The translations under genes and the position numbers were made by a program. Shown here piece by piece: positions 6,519 through 45,152 of a DNA stretch of 64,000 bases (the stretch's first letter is position 1; each line of letters starts with the position of its first letter). This DNA comes from Salinibaculum litoreum (GTDB lineage Archaea; Halobacteriota; Halobacteria; Halobacteriales; Haloarculaceae): contig CP046866.1 of the NCBI GenBank assembly GCA_009789175.1, positions 2,108,001-2,172,000 of the forward strand, in the 5' to 3' direction. Below the pieces are notes generated by a model that did not search any database, was not told where the DNA came from, and saw only the letters and a list, made by a program, of their open reading frames with translations.

Positions 6519-7456
6519 GGCTCTGGTGAACCACCGGACGGCGTCGGTTTCGACCGTCAGAACTAGTGGAATGAAGCGGGAAACCGCCGATGGTCTATGT
6601 CGAAGATTTCCCGCTTCACGAAGAAAGCGGTTCAGTTAGCTAAAAATGCTGTCGGTGGCCGAGGCGAAGTCGCCGCCCCCGAAGGGGGAGGCGGCTTCGC
6701 CGATTACGCTGTCGTATCGCTCCATTGTCTTCGAGTTTACTTGGAGAAGTCCTACCGAGAGGCGTTAGATCTGCTGAGCGAGATGCCACATATTCTCGGG
6801 GAGATCGGCCTCGAAGCGGCCGATCTCCCGCATCACTCGACGCTAGTGAAGTGGTTTGACAGAATCAAGACAGCGCTCTGGCGAGTGCTGCTGCGCCTCT
6901 CGGCGCAGGAGCACGAGCCAAGCGGTCACGCCGCCATTGACGCGACATTCTTTGACCGCGAAAACGCGAGCAAACACTACTGCGGTCGGACAAATTACCG
7001 CGTTCAGACGCTCAAAGCGACAGCTCTCGTCGACACAGAAAGCCAAGCGATCCTGGACGTTCACCGTACGACCGAGAAACGCCACGACACACAACTCGGC
7101 TGGCAGGTCGCCCGCCGCAACGCGGGCGACCTCGCCAGCCTCGCTGCGGACAAAGGCTACGATTGGATGGAGTTACGCGAGAAGCTCCGCGAAGAAGGCG
7201 TAAGACCACTAATCAAGCATCGTGAGTTTCGGCCCATCGATCACGCGCACAACGCGCGGATCGATGGGCCTCGATACCGTCAACGAGCGATGTGTGAAAC
7301 CGTCTTCTCGACGATTAAGCGCACGCTCGGCGACGCCGTGCGTGCGCGAACCTGGTACGGTGAATTTCGAGAACTCGTCTTGATGTGTACGGTTCACAAC
7401 ATCAAACAATCTCTGAAACCATGAAATCAAGCTACGTCTGGCGATTCACCACGGCC
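6519..7456 (+). mobile_element. IS5-family insertion sequence inside an ISH3 relic
   Basis: The element is about 938 bases. The left end (from 6519, GGCTCTGGTGAA...) and the reverse complement of the right end (up to 7456, GGCCGTGGTGAA...) match at most of 22 positions. The octamer TTGTAAGT stands on both sides (6511-6518 and 7457-7464). The single gene inside is intact. The surrounding sequence is a decayed ISH3-type transposase, so this is a nested insertion. Confidence 0.85.
6597..7424 (+). CDS. IS5-family transposase
   Basis: The 275-residue protein has an N-terminal helical domain and a DDE domain. The first Asp is in AAIDATFFDR (about residue 116), the second in LAADKGYDW (about 183) and the Glu in CETVFSTIKRTLG (about 239). 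The terminal Y-2-R-3-E-6-K-like spacing fits IS5. No frameshift or stop is seen, so the element could be active. A relative lies at 20715-21539 with different terminal repeats. Confidence 0.9.
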   Translation: MSKISRFTKKAVQLAKNAVGGRGEVAAPEGGGGFADYAVVSLHCLRVYLEKSYREALDLLSEMPHILGEIGLEAADLPHHSTLVKWFDRIKTALWRVLLRLSAQEHEPSGHAAIDATFFDRENASKHYCGRTNYRVQTLKATALVDTESQAILDVHRTTEKRHDTQLGWQVARRNAGDLASLAADKGYDWMELREKLREEGVRPLIKHREFRPIDHAHNARIDGPRYRQRAMCETVFSTIKRTLGDAVRARTWYGEFRELVLMCTVHNIKQSLKP

Positions 7457-31445: not shown

Positions 31446-32594
31446 TCACGCCCGGCGTGAACGCCGGGATTCTCTCATTGTACCAAGATAGACGGCGTCG
31501 AGGTCCTCGACCATCGACTCGATGGAAAACTGCTCGGCACGGTCGCGGCTGCTGTCGCCGAACTGCGCTCTGCGCTCGGCATCCGCCAGCAGGCGCCCCA
31601 GCCGGTCGGCGAGCGCGTCGGGGTCGCCGGTCGGTACCAGATAGCCGTTCTCGCCGTCGGTGACCTGTTCGGGGATGCCGGCGATGTCCGTCGCCACAAT
31701 AGGAAGGCCACTTGCCATCGCTTCGGTGATGACGCGGGGCGTTCCCTCACGAAACGAGGGAAGGACGAACACGTCCGAGGCCGCGAGAATTCGGTCGACG
31801 TCCTCGCGGTAGCCCAGCGTGTGGACGACGCCGTCGAGACCGCGCTTTCGAACGTCGGCCTCGAAGGCCTCGCGTTCGGGGCCCTCTCCGACGACCGAGA
31901 CCGTCAGGTCCGTCCGGTCGAGCGCGTCGACGGCCTCTAAGAGCACACCCAGTCCCTTGCCCTCGACGAGGCGGCCGACCATCGTCACCCGCAACCCCTC
32001 ACCGGGCAGGTCCGTCGCGGGGTCGGCCGTCGAAAACTGCTCGACGTCGATGCCGCTGTAGACCGTCCTGTACTGGTCGGGGCAACCGATCCCCCGGTCG
32101 AGATAGTCCTCGGCGATGGCGTCGGCGTTGGTAACGATGCAGTCGGTCATCGGCGCAACCTGCCGTTCGCAGGCCAGCACGAACCGGTTGAGGAGGTCGT
32201 TGCGGTCCTCTGCGAAGGGGACGCCGTGGACCGTGTGGATCACAGGAACCCCCACAGAGCGAGCCGCGATTCGGCCGACGATGCCTGCCTCCGTGCTGTG
32301 GGTGTGGACCAAATCGAAGTTCTGACGCCGGAGGTACCGGGCAATCGTCGCAACGGCAGGGACGGCCGTCACGGGATTGTAATGACGCAGGAGTGGGAAT
32401 CGACGAGTTCCGACGCCGCGGTCGTGCAGCCGCCGGGTCTGGGACTCGTCGTACGCGGCGCCGTGGCCAACAGTAAAATCGTAGCCCTCCAGTCCAAAGA
32501 CAGTCTGGATGGTCTTTGCTTCGGCGCCGCCTTTCAGCAAGCGGGTGATGAGGTGGAAGACGCGTGGTTCGTCGCCTGCGTCTCTGGAACTCAT
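31446..32594 (-). CDS. GT4-family glycosyltransferase with transposon-derived tail
   Basis: The 382-residue GT-B enzyme has the acceptor domain LITRLLKGGAEAKTIQT at residue 16 and VHTHSTEAGIVGRIAA near 96. The donor domain has VTMVGRLVEGKGLGVLLEAV near 204, and the EX7E-type site is FVLPSFREGTPRVITEAMASG near 275. The stop of the upstream dehydrogenase overlaps its start (TCAT, ATGA on the minus strand), so the two are translated together. The last residues, RESRRSRRA, are encoded by the hairpin end of the TnpB element, so the native C-terminus has been replaced. The core fold is complete, so it is probably functional. Confidence 0.88.
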   Translation of the reverse strand: MSSRDAGDEPRVFHLITRLLKGGAEAKTIQTVFGLEGYDFTVGHGAAYDESQTRRLHDRGVGTRRFPLLRHYNPVTAVPAVATIARYLRRQNFDLVHTHSTEAGIVGRIAARSVGVPVIHTVHGVPFAEDRNDLLNRFVLACERQVAPMTDCIVTNADAIAEDYLDRGIGCPDQYRTVYSGIDVEQFSTADPATDLPGEGLRVTMVGRLVEGKGLGVLLEAVDALDRTDLTVSVVGEGPEREAFEADVRKRGLDGVVHTLGYREDVDRILAASDVFVLPSFREGTPRVITEAMASGLPIVATDIAGIPEQVTDGENGYLVPTGDPDALADRLGRLLADAERRAQFGDSSRDRAEQFSIESMVEDLDAVYLGTMRESRRSRRA

Positions 32595-33889
32595 AGCCGA
32601 TGGACGTGCTCTGCGTCGATATCGGCCGTCGCGTTGCGGGTGTCAAACAGAAGCGGTGCGTGCTCGGCGACGGTGTCGACGGGGATGGCGTCGTGGTCGG
32701 TCACGAGTACGACACAGTCCTGGTCGGCGAGCACCGCGGGCGACAGCGAGCGTGATTCGTAGGTCTGTGCCCCGATCTCGACAGCGGGGACGTGCGGGTC
32801 GTGATAGGCGACGCTGGCACCGCGGTCTTCGAGCAGTGAGATGACATCAAGCGCCGGCGACTCGCGGGTGTCGACGACGTTGGGCTTGTAGGCGACGCCG
32901 AGTACGAGCACGTCGCTGTCGGGGACTGCCGTCCCGGCGTCGTTGACCAGCGTGACCACCCGGTCGACGACGTGTTCGGGCATCGAGCGGTTGACGGTGT
33001 CCGCGAGGTCGATGAATCGGGTGGCGACGCCGTGCTGGTCGGCCTTCCAGGACAGGTACTTCGGGTCGACGGGGATACAGTGTCCACCCAGTCCCGGTCC
33101 CGGGTAGAAGGGCATGAAGCCGAAGGGCTTGGTCGCGGCGGCGTCGATGACCGACCAGATGTCCACGTCGAGTTCGTGGGCGATGGTCGCCATCTCGTTG
33201 ATGAGTGCGATGTTGACGCTGCGAAACGTGTTTTCCAGCAGTTTCACGAGTTCGGCCTCCGTCGCCGAGTCGACGCGGACGAGTTCATCGAAGACAGGGC
33301 CATACAGCGCCTCGGCGCGGTCACCGCAGGCCTCGGTGACGCCGCCGAAGACCTTGGGGATGTCCGTCGTGCCGTACTCCTCGTTGCCGGGGTCGATGCG
33401 CTCGGGCGAGAAGGCGACGAAGACGTCCTCGCCGACCTCGTGGCCGTTGTCGGCCAGGGTCGGTGCGACCACCTCCTCGGTCGCACCCGGATAGACGGTA
33501 CTCTCCAGGACGACCGTGCTATCGGGCGAGAGGACGCCCGCGAGTTCCTCGGTCGCGTCGACGATGTAGGAAATGTTTGGCTGGCCGGTCTTGCGAAGCG
33601 GTGTGGGAACGCAGATAGAGACGCCGACAGCCTCGGAGAGGCGGTCGTAATCGGTCGTCGGCACGAACTCCTCGCCGACCACCCTGTCGACGGCTCCGTC
33701 GGGAACGTCGGTGATGTAGGAGTCGCCGTCCCGAAGCGTTTCGATGCGGGTTTCGTCGACGTCGACGCCGACGACGCGATAGCCCGTTTCGGCCATCGCC
33801 AACGCGAGCGGCAGGCCGACGTAACCAAGTCCGACGACACCGACGGTGTCGCCGGCGAGACTGTCCGGCGGATTGCGGTCGTCGGTCAT
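32591..33889 (-). CDS. UDP-HexNAc 6-dehydrogenase (WbpA/WecC type)
   Basis: The ATG at 33889 gives a 432-residue protein with an NAD loop, GVVGLGYVGLPLALAMA, near residue 17. PNISYIVDATEEL near 108 and VVLESTVYPGATEEVV near 128 follow, then FSPERIDPGN near 158 and the catalytic Cys in GPGLGGHCIPVDP near 258. 'STVYPG' and 'ERIDPGN' are the wording of UDP-GlcNAc/UDP-ManNAc 6-dehydrogenases rather than UDP-glucose ones. It would make a UDP-N-acetylhexosaminuronic acid. Its start overlaps the stop of the deacetylase gene (ATGA) and its stop overlaps the GT4 start, so it is the middle of a tight operon. Confidence 0.87.
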   Translation of the reverse strand: MTDDRNPPDSLAGDTVGVVGLGYVGLPLALAMAETGYRVVGVDVDETRIETLRDGDSYITDVPDGAVDRVVGEEFVPTTDYDRLSEAVGVSICVPTPLRKTGQPNISYIVDATEELAGVLSPDSTVVLESTVYPGATEEVVAPTLADNGHEVGEDVFVAFSPERIDPGNEEYGTTDIPKVFGGVTEACGDRAEALYGPVFDELVRVDSATEAELVKLLENTFRSVNIALINEMATIAHELDVDIWSVIDAAATKPFGFMPFYPGPGLGGHCIPVDPKYLSWKADQHGVATRFIDLADTVNRSMPEHVVDRVVTLVNDAGTAVPDSDVLVLGVAYKPNVVDTRESPALDVISLLEDRGASVAYHDPHVPAVEIGAQTYESRSLSPAVLADQDCVVLVTDHDAIPVDTVAEHAPLLFDTRNATADIDAEHVHRL

Positions 33890-36515: not shown

Positions 36516-37961
36516 TCACTCCTTATTCTGGCCGGCGGCGGCAAGCGATCGAACATCAGTCAAAACCTGCCATATCTGCCGAACGACGATTTTCAAATCG
36601 AACCAGAACGACTGTCGGCGGATGTACTCGACATCGTATCGAAGCTTCTCCCGTGGGTCGTGGCCGGTCGCGTCGTTTATCTGCGCGAGGCCAGTTAGCC
36701 CCGGTTTGACGAACCAACGCCGACGCCATTCCTCGGCACCGCGTTCCATATCACTATCCAGTTCCGGTCGTTCCGGCCGCGGGCCGACCACGCTCATGTC
36801 GCCGACGAGAATCGACCACAGCTGTGGAATCTCGTCGAGGTGGGTCTTCCGGAGGACCCGCCCGACGCGGGTCACCCGTGGGTCGCGTTCACCACGGTCC
36901 TCCTCGGAAAGTTTCGCGCCCGACTCCGCTTCGGCGTCGGTCACCATCGAGCGGAACTTCGAGACGGTGAAGGTGTCGCCGAACTCGGCCGTGCGCTGCT
37001 GGCTGTACAGCACCGGTCCGGGGCTGTCGAGTTTGATGGCGACAGCGATGGCGAGTATCACCGGCGACAGAACGAGCAGGCCAGCTCCCGCGAAACAGAT
37101 GTCGAAGACGCGTTTGACAGCGTAGTCCTGCCAGTCCCACGGTTCGAGGTCGACTTCCGCGAGGTCGCCACCCGGGACGCCTGCCGTGAGTACGTCGTCA
37201 GTGTGGTCGCGGTGCACCATCGCCGTTACACCGTACTCCGCGCAGGCGTCGAGCGTCCCGAAAAACTCCGCGCGGTCGGTGTTCGCGAACGCAACGAACG
37301 CGGTGTCCACGTCGTATTTCACGAACACCTCATCAAGCCGGGAGAGCCCACCGAGATTCGAGAGCTGGTCGAGGCTGGCCTCGACGACTCCACCATCGGA
37401 GAGTTCGACCGGCCTGGCATCCGGGGACTCCTCGACGGCAAAGGACGACGGCGGCGAGACGTAGCCGATGACCGGCACGTCCGTCGAAGCGAGGATATCC
37501 GCCATAGTTTCCGGATCATCACCGACGATAACCGCACGACTCCGGGAGCGTGGGCGACGACGAATGGCGACCGTAAACAAGGGCAACACCACGAGCAGGA
37601 ACGCCGTCGTCAACATCAGTGTCGCTCGCGGGAGCCGGTAACTGTAGTTGAAATACCCCAGAGCGGCGAGGGCGACCATCGACAGCAGGAGTCGCTTCTG
37701 CGTGAGCAAGATGGTGTCGAGAATCCGTCGGGGCCGGGGTTTGAAGACCGGCCACATGGCCGCCAGCGTCACGACAAGCGCCGTCGCTATCGTCCAGAGC
37801 AGTTCCCCGTTTTCGAGGACGACCGGTGCCGGCCGACCGAAGTACGGGACGAGTGCGAACGCCTCCTGCACAGCCGAGAGGTTGATGATAGTGACCGCGA
37901 GTGCGGTCATGATGGCGGTCCCGAGGACGCTGACCCCGCGGTACCGCCAGCCCGATGTCAT
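36516..37961 (-). CDS. Polyprenyl-phosphate sugar-1-phosphate transferase (WbaP/WcaJ type)
   Basis: I chose the ATG at 37961 (MTSGWRYRGVSV) because the preceding residues are basic, unlike the family, and TTGTACGGAATAG lies just upstream. Four hydrophobic segments and a soluble CoA-binding-like middle domain (AVIVGDDPETMADIL) precede the catalytic module. The module starts YAVKRVFDICFAGAGLLVLSP near 287, with VSKFRSMV near 335, RPERPELDSDM near 395 and FVKPGLTGLAQIN near 420. The enzyme moves a sugar-1-phosphate from a nucleotide sugar to a polyprenyl phosphate, starting a lipid-linked glycan. This bacterial-type initiator contrasts with the AglD/AlgJ-like archaeal route and marks the cluster as complete from start to transfer. 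Confidence 0.88.
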   Translation of the reverse strand: MTSGWRYRGVSVLGTAIMTALAVTIINLSAVQEAFALVPYFGRPAPVVLENGELLWTIATALVVTLAAMWPVFKPRPRRILDTILLTQKRLLLSMVALAALGYFNYSYRLPRATLMLTTAFLLVVLPLFTVAIRRRPRSRSRAVIVGDDPETMADILASTDVPVIGYVSPPSSFAVEESPDARPVELSDGGVVEASLDQLSNLGGLSRLDEVFVKYDVDTAFVAFANTDRAEFFGTLDACAEYGVTAMVHRDHTDDVLTAGVPGGDLAEVDLEPWDWQDYAVKRVFDICFAGAGLLVLSPVILAIAVAIKLDSPGPVLYSQQRTAEFGDTFTVSKFRSMVTDAEAESGAKLSEEDRGERDPRVTRVGRVLRKTHLDEIPQLWSILVGDMSVVGPRPERPELDSDMERGAEEWRRRWFVKPGLTGLAQINDATGHDPREKLRYDVEYIRRQSFWFDLKIVVRQIWQVLTDVRSLAAAGQNKE

Positions 37962-39430: not shown

Positions 39431-40417
39431 TTACGACGCCAGCACGAGCGGTTCGTACCAGTCGCGGTTGGCGCGGTACCACTCGATGAACGCTTCGACG
39501 CCCTCCCGAATGGTGTACGTCGGCTCGTAATCGAGCAACTCGGCGGCTCTGGTCGTGTCGGCGTGGGTGTGTTCGGCGTCGGCGTCGTGGCGCTCGTCGA
39601 ATGCCAGGTCGAGGTCGGGCGCTATCTGGTCGCGAATCTCCTCGGCGAGGGTGAGAATCTCGATGTTGTCGGTACTGCCGACGTTTACCGCCTGGCCGTC
39701 GGCGGCGTCTTCGGAAAGGAGGGTGACGTTCGCCTCGACGACATCCTCGATGAAGGTGAAATCCCGCGTCTGTGTGCCGTCGCCGTAGATGACCGGCGAG
39801 TCGCCGTTGAGACACCGCGAGACGAAGTTCGTCATCGCCATGTTCGGCCGCATTCGCGGGCCGTAGACAGTGAAATACCGCAGCGCGACCGCCGGCAGGT
39901 CGTACACCTCGCTGTAGGCACAGGCGTACCGTTCGGCGGCGAGTTTCGAGGCCCCGTAGGGGCTGACCGGCGTCGTCGGGTGCTCCTCGTCGTAGGGGAG
40001 ATACTGTGGTTTGCCGTACACAGAGGAGGAAGAAGCCATCACGAACCGCTCGATGCCGGTGTTGCGGGCGGCGTCCAACAGATTCAGCGTGCCGTTGACG
40101 TTGACCTCGTCGTACTTCCGGGGGTCCTCGACACTCGGTCGAACACCAGCCTGGGCAGCCTGGTGATAGACGTACTCCACGTCGGAGACGAGGTCGGTCA
40201 CGAGGTCGGCGTCCCGGACATCACCCTCGACGAGGCGATACGAGCCATCGCCGTTCTCGGCACGGTCACGGCAGACCTCGACAGTGTGCTCCTTGATGCG
40301 GGTGTCATAGAAGGGGTCGAAGTTGTCCAGAACGGTCACGTCGTGGCCGTCCGAGACGAACCGTTCAGCGAGGTGGCCGCCGATGAAGCCGGTGCCACCA
40401 GTGACAAGAATGTTCAT
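39431..40417 (-). CDS. NAD-dependent UDP-sugar 4-epimerase
   Basis: This 328-residue SDR has MNILVTGGTGFIGGHL at the start and then VLDNFDPFYDTRIKE, the wording of UDP-glucuronate 4-epimerases (DNFNxYYD...K). YHQAAQAGVRPSVEDP near 87 and ASSSSVYGKPQYLP near 128 follow, and the catalytic Tyr/Lys are in SPYGASKLAAER near 152. TVYGPRMRPNMAM and YGDGTQTRDFTFI are also typical. Either UDP-glucuronate/galacturonate or UDP-glucose/galactose interconversion is possible, and the FDPFYD segment favours the uronate. UDP-glucuronate is available from the AglM-type dehydrogenase nearby. Confidence 0.85.
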   Translation of the reverse strand: MNILVTGGTGFIGGHLAERFVSDGHDVTVLDNFDPFYDTRIKEHTVEVCRDRAENGDGSYRLVEGDVRDADLVTDLVSDVEYVYHQAAQAGVRPSVEDPRKYDEVNVNGTLNLLDAARNTGIERFVMASSSSVYGKPQYLPYDEEHPTTPVSPYGASKLAAERYACAYSEVYDLPAVALRYFTVYGPRMRPNMAMTNFVSRCLNGDSPVIYGDGTQTRDFTFIEDVVEANVTLLSEDAADGQAVNVGSTDNIEILTLAEEIRDQIAPDLDLAFDERHDADAEHTHADTTRAAELLDYEPTYTIREGVEAFIEWYRANRDWYEPLVLAS

Positions 40418-40595: not shown

Positions 40596-41360
40596 CTACT
40601 CCGCGGAGGCGTCGGCCTCAGCAGTTCCTTCTTCCGATTCCGGCTCCACTCCCTCTTCGAGGAGTTCCGTGGCATACTCGCGGTCCTCGGGATAGCCCAC
40701 GTCGACGCGCCAGCCGTCCATCCGGATGGCGTCGATGGTCCGCCCCGAGTGAAGCAGGAGGTCGACAGCGTCACTGATCTCTAGCTCGCCGCGGTCGGAG
40801 GGCTGGACGAGATGGCAGGCGTGGAAGATAGCCGGCGTGAAGGTGTAGAACCCAGTCATCACGAGATTCGACGGCGGGTCCTCGGGTTTCTCGACGACGT
40901 TCGTGATTTCGCCGTACTTGTTGGTGTCACAGACACCGTAACGGGAGGCCTCGTCCCACGGCACTTCCTCGACGAGGAACGCGGCGTCGGCGCGGTCCTC
41001 CTGCTGGCGGTTGATGACATCCCTGAGGTTCGCCTGGAAGATGTTGTCGCCCAGCATCAGCATGAAATCGTCGTCGATGTACTCCTCGACGGTCAGCAGG
41101 GCGTGGGCCAGCCCCTTCTGTTCGCGCTGGTGAGAGTAAGTGATGGGGACGCCCTCGAACTCGTCGTCGTAGTGTTCGATGATGGCCTCTTTCTTGTAGC
41201 CGACGACGACGTACAGCTCCTCGGCCCCCAGTTCGACCAGTTGCTCGAAACAATGGGTGAGAATCGGCTTGCCGGCGACCTCGACCATCCCCTTGGGTTT
41301 GTCTTCCGTCAGGGGACGGAGACGGGTTCCCTCGCCAGCAGCGAGTACGACAGCTTGCAT
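40596..41360 (-). CDS. aglF: Sugar-1-phosphate nucleotidyltransferase (AglF-like)
   Basis: Starting at 41360, MQAVVLAAGEGTRLRPLTED is the classic nucleotidyltransferase loop (G-x-G-T-R-L-R-P-L-T, then KPK). VAGKPILTHCFEQLVELG and LMLGDNIF with the metal Asp near 102 follow, then VVEKPEDPPSNLVMTGFYTF near 160. At 254 residues it is the short form without an acetyltransferase domain, like Haloferax AglF, a glucose-1-phosphate uridylyltransferase. It makes the UDP- or dTDP-sugar used by the adjacent AglM-type dehydrogenase, which is divergently transcribed from a shared 86-base promoter region. The acidic tail EGVEPESEEGTAEADASAE is unusual, and the PIN relic directly behind suggests the 3' end was rearranged. 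Confidence 0.82.
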   Translation of the reverse strand: MQAVVLAAGEGTRLRPLTEDKPKGMVEVAGKPILTHCFEQLVELGAEELYVVVGYKKEAIIEHYDDEFEGVPITYSHQREQKGLAHALLTVEEYIDDDFMLMLGDNIFQANLRDVINRQQEDRADAAFLVEEVPWDEASRYGVCDTNKYGEITNVVEKPEDPPSNLVMTGFYTFTPAIFHACHLVQPSDRGELEISDAVDLLLHSGRTIDAIRMDGWRVDVGYPEDREYATELLEEGVEPESEEGTAEADASAE

Positions 41361-41446: not shown

Positions 41447-42733
41447 ATGCGAATCAGCATCGTTGGCAGCGGCTACGTCGGGACGACAGTTGCCGCCTGT
41501 CTCGCCGACGCCGGCCACGAAGTCGTCAACGTCGACATCGACGAGGAAGTCGTCGACGCTATCAATGCGGGGGAGGCACCGATTCACGAACCGGGACTGG
41601 ACGAACTGGTCGCGGCCCACGGCGGTGACCGCCTGCGTGCGACCACCGACTACGGGGCCATCCGCGACACCGACGTGACCTTCCTCGCCCTGCCGACCCC
41701 GAGCAACGAGGACGGGAGTATCGACCTCTCGGCGATGGAGGCCGGTGCTCGCTCGGTGGGCGAGGCACTCGCCGAGAAGGACGACTACCACCTCGTCGTC
41801 GTCAAGAGCACCGTGATTCCGGGGACTGCCGAGGAGACGCTCACACCAATCATCGCCGAGGCAAGCGGTGGTACGGAAGGCGAGGACTTCGACGTGGCAT
41901 CGAACCCGGAGTTCCTCCGTGAGGGGTCGGCCGTCGCGGACTTCCAGCAGCCCGACAAACTCGTCTTCGGCGCCACGACAGAGCGCGCGTTCGCCCGTCT
42001 GCGTGCGGTGTATGATTCGGTCGTCGACGACGTCCCTGTCGTCGAGACCGGTCGCCGGGAAGCCGAGATGATCAAGTACGCCAACAACGCCTTCCTCGCG
42101 GCGAAGGTCAGTCTTATCAACGACCTCGGGAACGTCTGCAAGGAGTACGGCGTCGACGCCTACGAGGTGGCCGACGCCATCGGGCTGGACGACCGCATCG
42201 GCGAGCGGTTCCTCCGGAGCGGGGTTGGCTGGGGGGGGAGCTGCTTCCCGAAGGATGTTGACGCCATCCGCGCGGCCGCCCGTGCCGAAGGGTACGAGCC
42301 ACAGATGCTCGATGCGGCCGTCGCCGTCAACGACTGCCAGCCCGAGCGCCTGCTCGCGTTACTCGATGGCCACGTCGACGTAGCCGGCCAGCGCGTCGCC
42401 GTCCTTGGACTCTCGTTTAAGCCCGGCACCGACGACATTCGCAACTCCCGGGCGATTCCCGTCATCGAAGGATTGCAGGAACGCGGCGCGACCGTCGTCG
42501 CCTACGACCCGGTCGCAGTCGCGGAGATGCGTGAGCAGTTCCCCGACGTGGCGTATGCCGACAGCGCCGCCGACGCGCTCGTCGACGCCGCGGGCGCTGT
42601 GGTCGTCACCGACTGGGACGAGTTCGCCGCGCTCGATTCGGAGTTCGACGCGATGGCTCGACCCGTAGTGGTCGACGGCCGCCACGTCGTCGAACGACGC
42701 GAGGGCATCACCTACGAAGGACTGACCTGGTGA
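41447..42733 (+). CDS. aglM: UDP-glucose 6-dehydrogenase (AglM-type)
   Basis: The ATG at 41447 gives [21 protein letters not shown], the NAD-binding start expected in this family. [16 protein letters not shown] near 118 and [16 protein letters not shown] near 147 are UDP-glucose-dehydrogenase wording. [17 protein letters not shown] near 206 and the catalytic Cys in [14 protein letters not shown] near 262 complete the picture, and the C-terminal UDP-binding domain is intact. It oxidises UDP-glucose twice to UDP-glucuronate, the donor for hexuronic acid residues and the substrate for the UXS-like enzyme at 10333 and the epimerase at 39431. It converges with the STT3 gene with only 12 bases between. 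Confidence 0.92.
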
Positions 42734-42745
42734 ACCACAGCGTGG

Positions 42746-45094
42746 TCAAGCAGTCGCATCGACTGCTGTCCCGTTCATCACCGAAGATTCCGACACCTCG
42801 ACAGTCCAGGTCTCCTCAGTGGTCGAGAGTTCGTAGGTGCCGGGGTTTGGGACCGTTACCGAGAAGTTGCCACTGGCGTCGGCCTGGACCTGGCGCTCGT
42901 AGGTGAATTCGTCGTTCGGGATAGAGACGTCCGTCGAGAGGGAGACGGTCGCGTTCGGCGCCGCCGTACCGTTCAGCGTCGCACCCGGAACAACGAGGAA
43001 GGCCTTCCGGTCACCGCTCTCGGTGACGTAGAGAGCCCGATACCGGGAGAGACCGTCGACATCGTCGTACCGACTGCCGTAGTGGTTGTGCAGGCGGAAC
43101 CCAATTGCGGGACTATCGACCGGGTACGCTTCGGTGACGACGAAGCGAGCGTTTCCGGTTGCGTCAGCGGCAGTGGCAGGGTCGTCGACCGCAGCGAACA
43201 GGCGGTAATTCGACTGGGCGTACCCGTACGATTGTGACTGCCCGTTGACGAAGTAGTTGTACATCCGGTTTCGTCCCCAGTCGGTGAAGACGTAGCTCTC
43301 CGTATCCGTCGGGTCACCGGACGTGGCTGCGGTCGATTCCGACCACCCCCGCTCGTCGGCGTACGCCGCGATGTAAGCGGCCGTCTCGTAGGAGTCGTCG
43401 TCGATAGAGACCTGGTTCATTTTCACCGCCGACTGGACGACACCGAGCCCGCCGACGAGCAAGAAGATGGCAAACAGCGCTCCGACCGTCGACCTGTCGG
43501 GCCGGCCGGGCAGCCAGTCGCGGCGGTCTACACCATCCAGCGGCGTCGGGGCCGGAAGAACATCGACCCAGGCCGCGAGCCAGACGAGTCCGAGCCCCGA
43601 AAACAGCGCCGTGAACGCGGAGAGTTCGCCGACGAACCGGACCTGGAAAACCGACAGTCCAAAGAAATACCAGCCGTAGACGACGGGCACGACCCACTCA
43701 TCGTCATCGAGCAAGCGAGCGGTAGCCCACACCAGGGAGACCATCGCAACGACGAGGATGAACCCAAAGACGAGGAGGAACCCGACGACGTCGTTGAACA
43801 GCGACTGCGTCTCGGCGATGTTATCACCGCGGAGGATTCTGTCGATGCCCTCGGAGAGGGCCGCCCAGAGGTCGGGAACGAGGACCGCGAGGGCGCCGAG
43901 CAGGCCGACGCCCGCGACCAGTTCGGCGACTGCGATTTCGGCGGCGTCCCGGTCGAACCGTGCCGCGAGTTCGCCGACAGCCACGACTGCGCTACTGCCG
44001 GCAAACAGCAACAGCGGCGTGACAGAAACGGTCGTCGAGTGCCAGTCGACCGCCGCGTGAACGCCGTACGTGAGCGCTGCGGCGAGTGCGAGCCCGCCGA
44101 GAACGGGGGCTTGGACTGCGAGTGGCGACCGCCCGGCACGGACCTCGAGCAACACGGCCAGCGCCACGATAGCACCGACGGGGAGGATGAGCAACGGACC
44201 GTTGTCCCAGGCCAGCACCTGCCCGGAGACGCCGACACCGAGGCCGACCGCCGCGAGCCAACAGCCCGTGTCAGCGTACGGACGGTCGGTGTCGGCCGTC
44301 AGGACCAGAGCGAGCGACAGCGCGGTGAGCGTCAGCCAGAGGTAGTCGAAGGCGTGGTGGTCGGCGTAGCCCAGGCTCGTCCGGAAGGCGTGGCCGGGCG
44401 TGACCGCGAGCAAGACGACCGACGCCAGCGCGACGCGGCGGTCCGCGGTGACCCGGACGGCGAGCACGTAGAGCATAACCCCCACCAGCAGGGCCACCGC
44501 GACGGGATACAGCGCCAGCACGACGCCGGCGGCGTCGGTGCCGCCCGCGAGCCCGGAGAACCAGGCGAGCGTTGCAACCAGAAACGGTTCGCCAGTGTCG
44601 ATACCGGATGGAACCTCTCCGAAGGGAACTACCCCGACGCCACCCTCGGCGAGCGTCTGTTCGGCCCAGAACCGGTAGTAATACGGGTCGTTCCCCGAGA
44701 GGACGACAGCCCCGTCACGGAAGATTGATTGGACAGAGAAGAGACGCACCACGAGAACAGTTGCCAGCGCGCCGGCGAGCAAGCCAAGCGCACGCACGTC
44801 GACAGACGGCAGCGACAGGTCCGGCGTCTCGACATCGGTCGACTCGGTTCCGTCCTCGACCACCTCGTCGCCGAGTGCAGCGCGAACGGCGACGGGGTCG
44901 GCCAGCCGGTACTCGCCGTTGGCCTTCTCGACGACGCCTTCCGAGACGAGCTGACCAAAGGCCCCGGATTCGATGGCCACGTCGTCGAAGGTCCACGTCT
45001 CGGAGCTCTCGTCGACATCGGCGACGGTTTCGAGCGCAGATTCGAGGTCGGGTCGGTCCGCGAGTACCTCTTCGACCCGACTGCTATCTACCAT
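42746..45094 (-). CDS. Divergent STT3/AglB-family oligosaccharyltransferase with N-terminal cytoplasmic domain
   Basis: I place the start at 45094 (MVDSSRVEEVLADRP), 88 bases from the divergent VanZ gene. Residues 1-75 form a soluble domain (TFDDVAIESGAFGQLVSEGVVEKANGEYRL) resembling a winged helix. About 13 membrane segments follow from residue 102. The first metal motif is GNDPYYYRFW (about 134) and the second DHHAFDYLW (about 242), both as in STT3. The peptide-sequon motif WWDYG is replaced by FTDWG (603-607), keeping Asp and Gly. The C-terminal 100 residues look like an Ig-like/carboxypeptidase-regulatory domain (TLNGTAAPNATVSL ... GNFSVTVPNPGTYEL), common in haloarchaeal AglB. It should transfer the lipid-linked glycan to Asn on exported proteins, but the altered motif makes its specificity uncertain. 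Confidence 0.8.
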   Translation of the reverse strand: MVDSSRVEEVLADRPDLESALETVADVDESSETWTFDDVAIESGAFGQLVSEGVVEKANGEYRLADPVAVRAALGDEVVEDGTESTDVETPDLSLPSVDVRALGLLAGALATVLVVRLFSVQSIFRDGAVVLSGNDPYYYRFWAEQTLAEGGVGVVPFGEVPSGIDTGEPFLVATLAWFSGLAGGTDAAGVVLALYPVAVALLVGVMLYVLAVRVTADRRVALASVVLLAVTPGHAFRTSLGYADHHAFDYLWLTLTALSLALVLTADTDRPYADTGCWLAAVGLGVGVSGQVLAWDNGPLLILPVGAIVALAVLLEVRAGRSPLAVQAPVLGGLALAAALTYGVHAAVDWHSTTVSVTPLLLFAGSSAVVAVGELAARFDRDAAEIAVAELVAGVGLLGALAVLVPDLWAALSEGIDRILRGDNIAETQSLFNDVVGFLLVFGFILVVAMVSLVWATARLLDDDEWVVPVVYGWYFFGLSVFQVRFVGELSAFTALFSGLGLVWLAAWVDVLPAPTPLDGVDRRDWLPGRPDRSTVGALFAIFLLVGGLGVVQSAVKMNQVSIDDDSYETAAYIAAYADERGWSESTAATSGDPTDTESYVFTDWGRNRMYNYFVNGQSQSYGYAQSNYRLFAAVDDPATAADATGNARFVVTEAYPVDSPAIGFRLHNHYGSRYDDVDGLSRYRALYVTESGDRKAFLVVPGATLNGTAAPNATVSLSTDVSIPNDEFTYERQVQADASGNFSVTVPNPGTYELSTTEETWTVEVSESSVMNGTAVDATA

Positions 45095-45152
45095 ATCTAC
45101 TGGGATTGCCGTCTGGCTCAAAAACCCATCGGGGTTCCGGAGAACCAAACCG

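Follow-up and report, generated by a model that had tools for sequence, protein, structure and literature searches.

Many haloarchaea have a second, overlooked homologue of the STT3/AglB oligosaccharyltransferases, which may be the enzyme missing from Halobacterium surface-layer glycosylation

Haloarchaeal AglB, the closest described system, uses glycans carried on dolichol monophosphate. Archaeal AglB proteins, represented by AglB-L of A. fulgidus (3waj, 5gmy, 7e9s) and by TIGR04154, and among which we count Halobacterium VNG1068G and Haloferax AglB, share with the protein described here the membrane fold, the C-terminal domain, both metal motifs, the TIXE glutamate and the RF arginine, while the latter differs from them in the replacement of WWDYG, in an N-terminal winged-helix-like domain, in its gene partners and in forming a separate clade. 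As far as we know, N-glycosylation is regarded as relying everywhere on the Asn-x-Ser/Thr sequon and the WWDYG pocket. Several AglB paralogues per genome, as found here, also occur in A. fulgidus (S1, S2 and L), where WWDYG and a DK-type pocket are common to all three, paralogues within one organism having the same pocket type (PMC3703281). This rule appears to be broken in haloarchaea. In Hfx. volcanii, the Agl15 (low-salt) pathway produces an AglB-independent N-glycan and needs a second oligosaccharyltransferase (OST) (PMC8241124). In H. salinarum, the glycan on Asn-2 of the S-layer glycoprotein, a repeating unit on dolichol pyrophosphate, is blocked by bacitracin, and glycosylation persists when Ser-4 of the sequon is changed to Val, Leu or Asn; a 2010 review offered no suitable explanation for the dispensability of Ser-4, and only one OST gene had been found (PMC2952790). 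In addition, a paper from 2019 regarded the handling of the repeating-unit glycan by AglB as not clear and suggested a novel OST (PMC6591318).

A second enzyme of this kind is in fact encoded by many salt-loving archaea. The window analysed, a stretch of 64,000 nucleotides from Salinibaculum litoreum, carries one such gene (Table 1), and the family is here named STT3p; a named second haloarchaeal OST was not found in the open-access literature. The ATG start is supported by the coding score and by the aligned starts of relatives, a TTG at 45148 being also in frame. Its designation as an STT3/AglB homologue in the earlier note was borne out by matches above the cut-offs of Pfam STT3 and AglB_L1 as well as by the predicted fold. 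Against TIGR04154, the archaeal AglB subfamily, the protein scored 148 bits and its Halobacterium counterpart 141 bits, both below the cut-off of 450. The canonical AglB that the earlier note had envisaged was located elsewhere in the same genome (G000:C1:1289850-1292603, 868 bits, with VMSWWDYGHW), so that STT3p is a paralogue.

Using a family profile (E < 1e-40), STT3p was detected in 208 of 392 Halobacteriales genomes, so a restriction of the family to this glycan cluster, or to one genus, was rejected. The phylum scan gave no full-length member outside Halobacteriales (best score 135 bits, as against at least 750 inside), and, judged by these scores, the clade is nearly confined to that order. 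Membership of a clade, as the earlier note supposed, was upheld by a tree of 58 proteins in which all 28 STT3p rows fell on one side of a long branch (SH-aLRT 100). The family was absent from all 15 genomes of a Haloferax-like genus, recognised by the N-terminus of its S-layer protein (ERGDLDADNETFNKT, as in Haloferax), an absence which led us to reject STT3p as the missing OST of the Agl15 pathway and makes that role unlikely for the family.

Table 1. Features of the STT3p gene and of its neighbours in the window (aa, residues of the STT3p protein; n, number of aligned proteins).
Feature	Coordinates	Strand	Remarks
STT3p gene	42746..45094	minus	782 aa, no WWDYG; open reading frame, Pfam, TIGR04154 score, fold
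N-terminal winged-helix-like cytoplasmic domain, aa 1-75	44870..45094	minus	predicted model; family alignment
Metal motif 1, GNDPYYYR, aa 134-141	44672..44695	minus	N135 and D136 invariant, 81/81
Metal motif 2, DHHAFDY, aa 245-251	44342..44362	minus	alignment, n=81
E428, TIXE/SVSE-type catalytic Glu (IAETQ)	43811..43813	minus	81/81
R486 of QxRF motif	43637..43639	minus	81/81
WWDYG-replacing block VFTDWGRNRMYNYFVNG, aa 602-618	43241..43291	minus	V602 and N613 invariant; W606 and R610 80/81
UDP-glucose 6-dehydrogenase	41447..42733	plus	
Sugar-1-phosphate nucleotidyltransferase	40596..41360	minus	family in 38/85 STT3p neighbourhoods
Nucleotide-sugar epimerase/dehydratase	39431..40417	minus	family in 43/85 STT3p neighbourhoods
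WbaP/WcaJ-like phosphoglycosyltransferase (PF02397)	36516..37961	minus	most frequent STT3p neighbour; predicted starter of pyrophosphate-linked lipid glycan
Second nucleotide-sugar dehydrogenase	32591..33889	minus	family in 28/85 STT3p neighbourhoods
GT4 glycosyltransferase	31446..32594	minus	

Residue conservation was assessed by aligning the window protein with 80 relatives from other genomes. Both metal-site motifs are intact, as first noticed from the sequence, with NDPYYY at residues 135-140 and DHHAFDY at 245-251; in the second, D245 is kept in 76 proteins and is Glu in 5, H246 is kept in all 81 and H247 in 66. R486 is followed by F487 in every protein aligned. The family thus has the features by which STT3, AglB and PglB are known, namely a GT-C fold with a C-terminal core, two metal motifs, a TIXE/SVSE glutamate and the RF arginine, except that WWDYG gives way to S-x-W-[GS]-x-N-R-x-Y-N. 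An AlphaFold (AF2) model built on 52 sequences (pLDDT 90.9, pTM 0.84) matched A. fulgidus AglB best among solved structures (Z 36.4 and 3.8 A over 600 residues for 3waj, Z 35.8 for 7e9s), its C-terminal domain superimposing on 3wai within 1.9 A over 152 residues. Lower matches followed in the order yeast and human STT3 (Z 31), PglB (26), ArnT and DPY19. The last is a C-mannosyltransferase, related to STT3 within GT-C but acting on a different residue, and its score (23.6) is clearly below that of 3waj; no WaaL/PglL-type ligase appeared among the matches listed. The added N-terminal domain of about 75 residues proposed in the earlier note is present in the model (helices 4-13, 17-30 and 43-51, strands 55-58 and 61-64, helix 67-74), but it is not special to this gene, since the whole family has it.

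The sequon-binding block departs from that of AglB. No WWDYG occurs elsewhere in the 782 residues, and the letters FTDWG, which the earlier note read as a variant of it, do stand at F603-T604-D605-W606-G607. That they are an in-register variant was nevertheless not confirmed: the D column is variable in the 81 proteins (E in 26, Q in 21, R in 14, K in 5, D in 3), and when the family profile was aligned with that of 14 canonical AglBs from haloarchaea, V602-F-T-D-W606 fell on V-M-S-W-W and the Asp of WWDYG on G607, with low local confidence. With so variable a column, FTDWG does not define the clade, and it was discarded as a marker in favour of the signature S-x-W-[GS]-x-N-R-x-Y-N-Y-F-V, the family consensus of the whole block being V-[LF]-S-x-W-[GS]-x-N-R-x-Y-N-Y-F-V (n=81). 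Since the D column varies and the family block is different, WWDYG has been replaced outright. In the model, the replacing block has a strand (602-603) and a helix (606-617). Moreover, residues 664-675, assigned to the DK-helix region by alignment only, have no conserved Lys, L668 being kept in 80 of 81. The alignment and the predicted model together show an AglB-like OST clade in which the Ser/Thr-binding block has been replaced and the catalytic core retained, as had been claimed. Such an enzyme may have an altered sequon recognition, as the earlier note supposed, and Halobacterium provides an independent lead in this direction. As a separate observation, no W-W-D-Y-G pattern was found in some AglB-like proteins of other archaea (L312, L317 and L327, from G608, G542 and G455).

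The lipid carrier of the donor can be approached through the gene partners. Clustering of the genes within 10 kb of STT3p at 85 loci gave the PF02397 phosphoglycosyltransferase and nucleotide-sugar epimerases as the commonest (43 loci each), followed by nucleotidyltransferases (38), UDP-sugar dehydrogenases (28) and GlmS (18). A phosphoglycosyltransferase lies within 10 kb at 34 of 67 STT3p loci with full flanks, as against none of 20 canonical aglB loci. Genome-wide, it is found in 198 of 208 genomes with STT3p and in 51 of 184 without (Fisher p 2e-48) and, within one genus, in 15/15 with and 2/17 without (p 2e-7); the presence lists were transcribed by hand and, the genomes being related, such p-values overstate independence, the within-genus figure being the fairer one. 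The pairing with a glycan cluster proposed earlier therefore stands as a tie to glycan genes, but not to this cluster as a whole: by neighbourhood and genome counts, what STT3p is really paired with is one particular phosphoglycosyltransferase, together with nucleotide-sugar genes. PF02397 enzymes make polyprenyl-PP-sugars, and so the donor of STT3p is predicted to be linked to dolichol pyrophosphate (Dol-PP). These counts give good support to the pairing of STT3p with a pathway of the Dol-PP type, and the carrier itself would then be dolichol pyrophosphate.

A second association is that with the S-layer. At two Halonotius loci and one Halorubrum locus, 183-381 bp separate STT3p from an S-layer glycoprotein gene; the distance is 1.7-7.3 kb in Halobellus, in other Halorubrum, in Halobacterium and on a Salinibaculum plasmid, the last being that of Salinibaculum sp. 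KK48, in which the S-layer-like gene is 7.3 kb from the plasmid copy (L075). By contig coordinates, such a gene was found within 25 kb in G193, G204, G286, G116, G430, G278, G217 and G151, and not within that distance in G200, G214, G381 and others. G204, whose bacteriorhodopsin is 100% identical to that of H. salinarum over 260 residues, has the order csg, secreted protein, ABC-transporter genes, STT3p, GlmS, two nucleotidyltransferases and phosphoglycosyltransferase, with csg 3.3 kb from STT3p. When the mature starts of S-layer proteins were compared, with cleavage sites assumed from the A-x-A rule, start hexamers picked by eye and lineages unequally represented, Asn stood at position 1 or 2 after the Ala run of the signal in 21 of 33 distinct starts from STT3p-bearing genomes and in 1 of 10 from the others (p 0.004), while positions 3-6 held 7 Asn in 132. 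Ser or Thr at +2 of the Asn is found in no more than 5 of these 21; some Halorubrum starts read ANSH or ANGH. The pattern lends weak support to a link with STT3p. Asn-2 as a general target was not supported, since about half of the S-layer proteins of STT3p-bearing genomes do not have it, among them those of Halorussus (ADVQRGG), some Haloarcula (SERGAG) and Halobacterium CBA1126 (QAGNID). In the H. salinarum-like genome the start reads Asn-Ala-Asp, as against the published Asn-Ala-Ser.

The catalytic and linkage evidence for STT3p is strong, and the best explanation of the whole, to which we give a probability of about one half, is that of a second OST with a Dol-PP donor and no need for a hydroxy residue at +2, which acts on Asn-2 in Halobacterium. 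According to this proposal, STT3p would be a haloarchaea-specific enzyme of AglB-like chemistry (metal-bound Asp/His, TIXE Glu and conserved Arg), transferring a glycan which is started by the WbaP-like phosphoglycosyltransferase and hence borne on dolichol pyrophosphate. With WWDYG lost and no conserved Lys in the DK helix, the hydroxy residue at +2 could be dispensed with, and the choice of site would be set otherwise, e.g. by proximity to the N-terminus in S-layer glycoproteins. STT3p fits the Asn-2 puzzle: it is a second OST, its partner is of the pyrophosphate type, its locus is linked to the S-layer, and the motif of the Ser/Thr pocket is missing from it. We infer an Asn acceptor, a relaxed sequon and identity with the enzyme that places the repeating-unit glycan on S-layer Asn-2 of Halobacterium, and STT3p may be the enzyme missing from the surface-layer glycosylation of this genus since the 1990s.

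Three alternatives have to be weighed against this explanation. STT3p could be a second OST of the ordinary Asn-x-Ser/Thr type, with the S-x-W-G-x-N-R-x-Y-N block as an equivalent Ser/Thr pocket and only the donor being different. In fact, the block sits at the place of WWDYG (VIA-align puts model residue 624 on chain residue 572 of 3wai, just after WWDYG) and is strongly conserved among the 81 proteins, which argues for a binding role, and some S-layer Asn-2 sites read NAS, NQS, NDS or NVT. However, no WWD or DK/MI residue pattern survives, Ser or Thr at +2 is infrequent in the above count, and glycosylation persists in the Ser-4 mutants on record (PMC2952790), so that we consider this alternative unlikely. 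It is likewise doubtful that STT3p is a capsule or exopolysaccharide polymer ligase which joins repeat-unit polysaccharide to something other than Asn, be it Ser/Thr, a lipid or a terminal group, as bacterial enzymes of the WaaL/PglL type do. The linked WbaP/WcaJ-like enzyme has its best match in the exopolysaccharide family TIGR03025; it is found also in the 51 genomes without STT3p and could serve exopolysaccharide instead. Epimerases and sugar dehydrogenases are linked as well, and a whole genus and several other STT3p-bearing genomes have S-layer proteins without Asn-2. A ligase of this sort is at odds with the conservation in all 81 proteins of the Glu and Arg which serve the Asn acceptor in OSTs, and with top structural matches that are N-OSTs. 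That STT3p should be an inactive, AglB-derived regulator or a hydrolase, as the E-H-Q/R/N form of motif 2 in some subclades could suggest (D245E in 5 and H247 changed in 15 of 81), is very improbable given that most members, including that of the window, keep every catalytic residue and that linkage to donor-synthesis genes is strong.

The proposal of a second OST with a Dol-PP donor can be extended, more tentatively, to two parallel systems of haloarchaeal N-glycosylation, one using Dol-P, AglB and Asn-x-Ser/Thr, and the other using Dol-PP and STT3p. The latter system would not read the hydroxy residue at +2 and would select its acceptor by location at the N-terminus of the mature protein, perhaps in the course of export and by means of the winged-helix domain. 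If so, STT3p would be, to our knowledge, the first natural STT3 lineage to abandon the sequon. A widespread clade which has kept the chemistry without the pocket would uncouple catalysis from the recognition of sites, and a relaxed OST would serve glycoengineering. It also provides a candidate gene for two puzzles in H. salinarum, a genetically tractable organism: the dispensability of Ser-4 and the transferase of the pyrophosphate-linked repeating-unit glycan. As regards export, the profile of the N-terminal domain also matched the start of a haloarchaeal EMC3/TMCO1-like insertase (PF01956; L195, L196 and L198), whose gene sits between adk and cmk, a likeness which hints at a common cytoplasmic partner at the export site.

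Several further observations concern variation within the family. Subclades in which motif 2 reads E-H-R, D-H-G or H-H-R (L041, L044-L047 and other relatives with 31-36% identity) keep most of the W-x-x-x-R block; they may be inactive or make another use of metal. Longer proteins, of 940-1030 residues and extended at the C-terminus, occur at L106, L108, L109, L111, L116, L119, L120, L130, L134, L137 and L149, and at L038, a locus related to the long forms, this extra region contains a LamG-like stretch. Salinibaculum sp. KK48 has two copies, one chromosomal (L074) and one (L075) on a 52-kb plasmid. Genes with one in-frame stop (G200:C3:2360521-2363007 and G191:C2:1299280-1301610) are possible recent losses. 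In G231, of the genus Halobacterium, a broken, frame-shifted remnant (L192/L197, G231:C1:214034-214499) lies between a GlmU-like gene and the S-layer gene, with an intact STT3p 50 kb away, which we read as decay of the S-layer-linked copy. Finally, the window (6597-7424) and a Halobacterium genome (L200:14292-15119) encode 275-residue proteins nearly identical over their first 50 residues, probably a shared insertion-sequence transposase.
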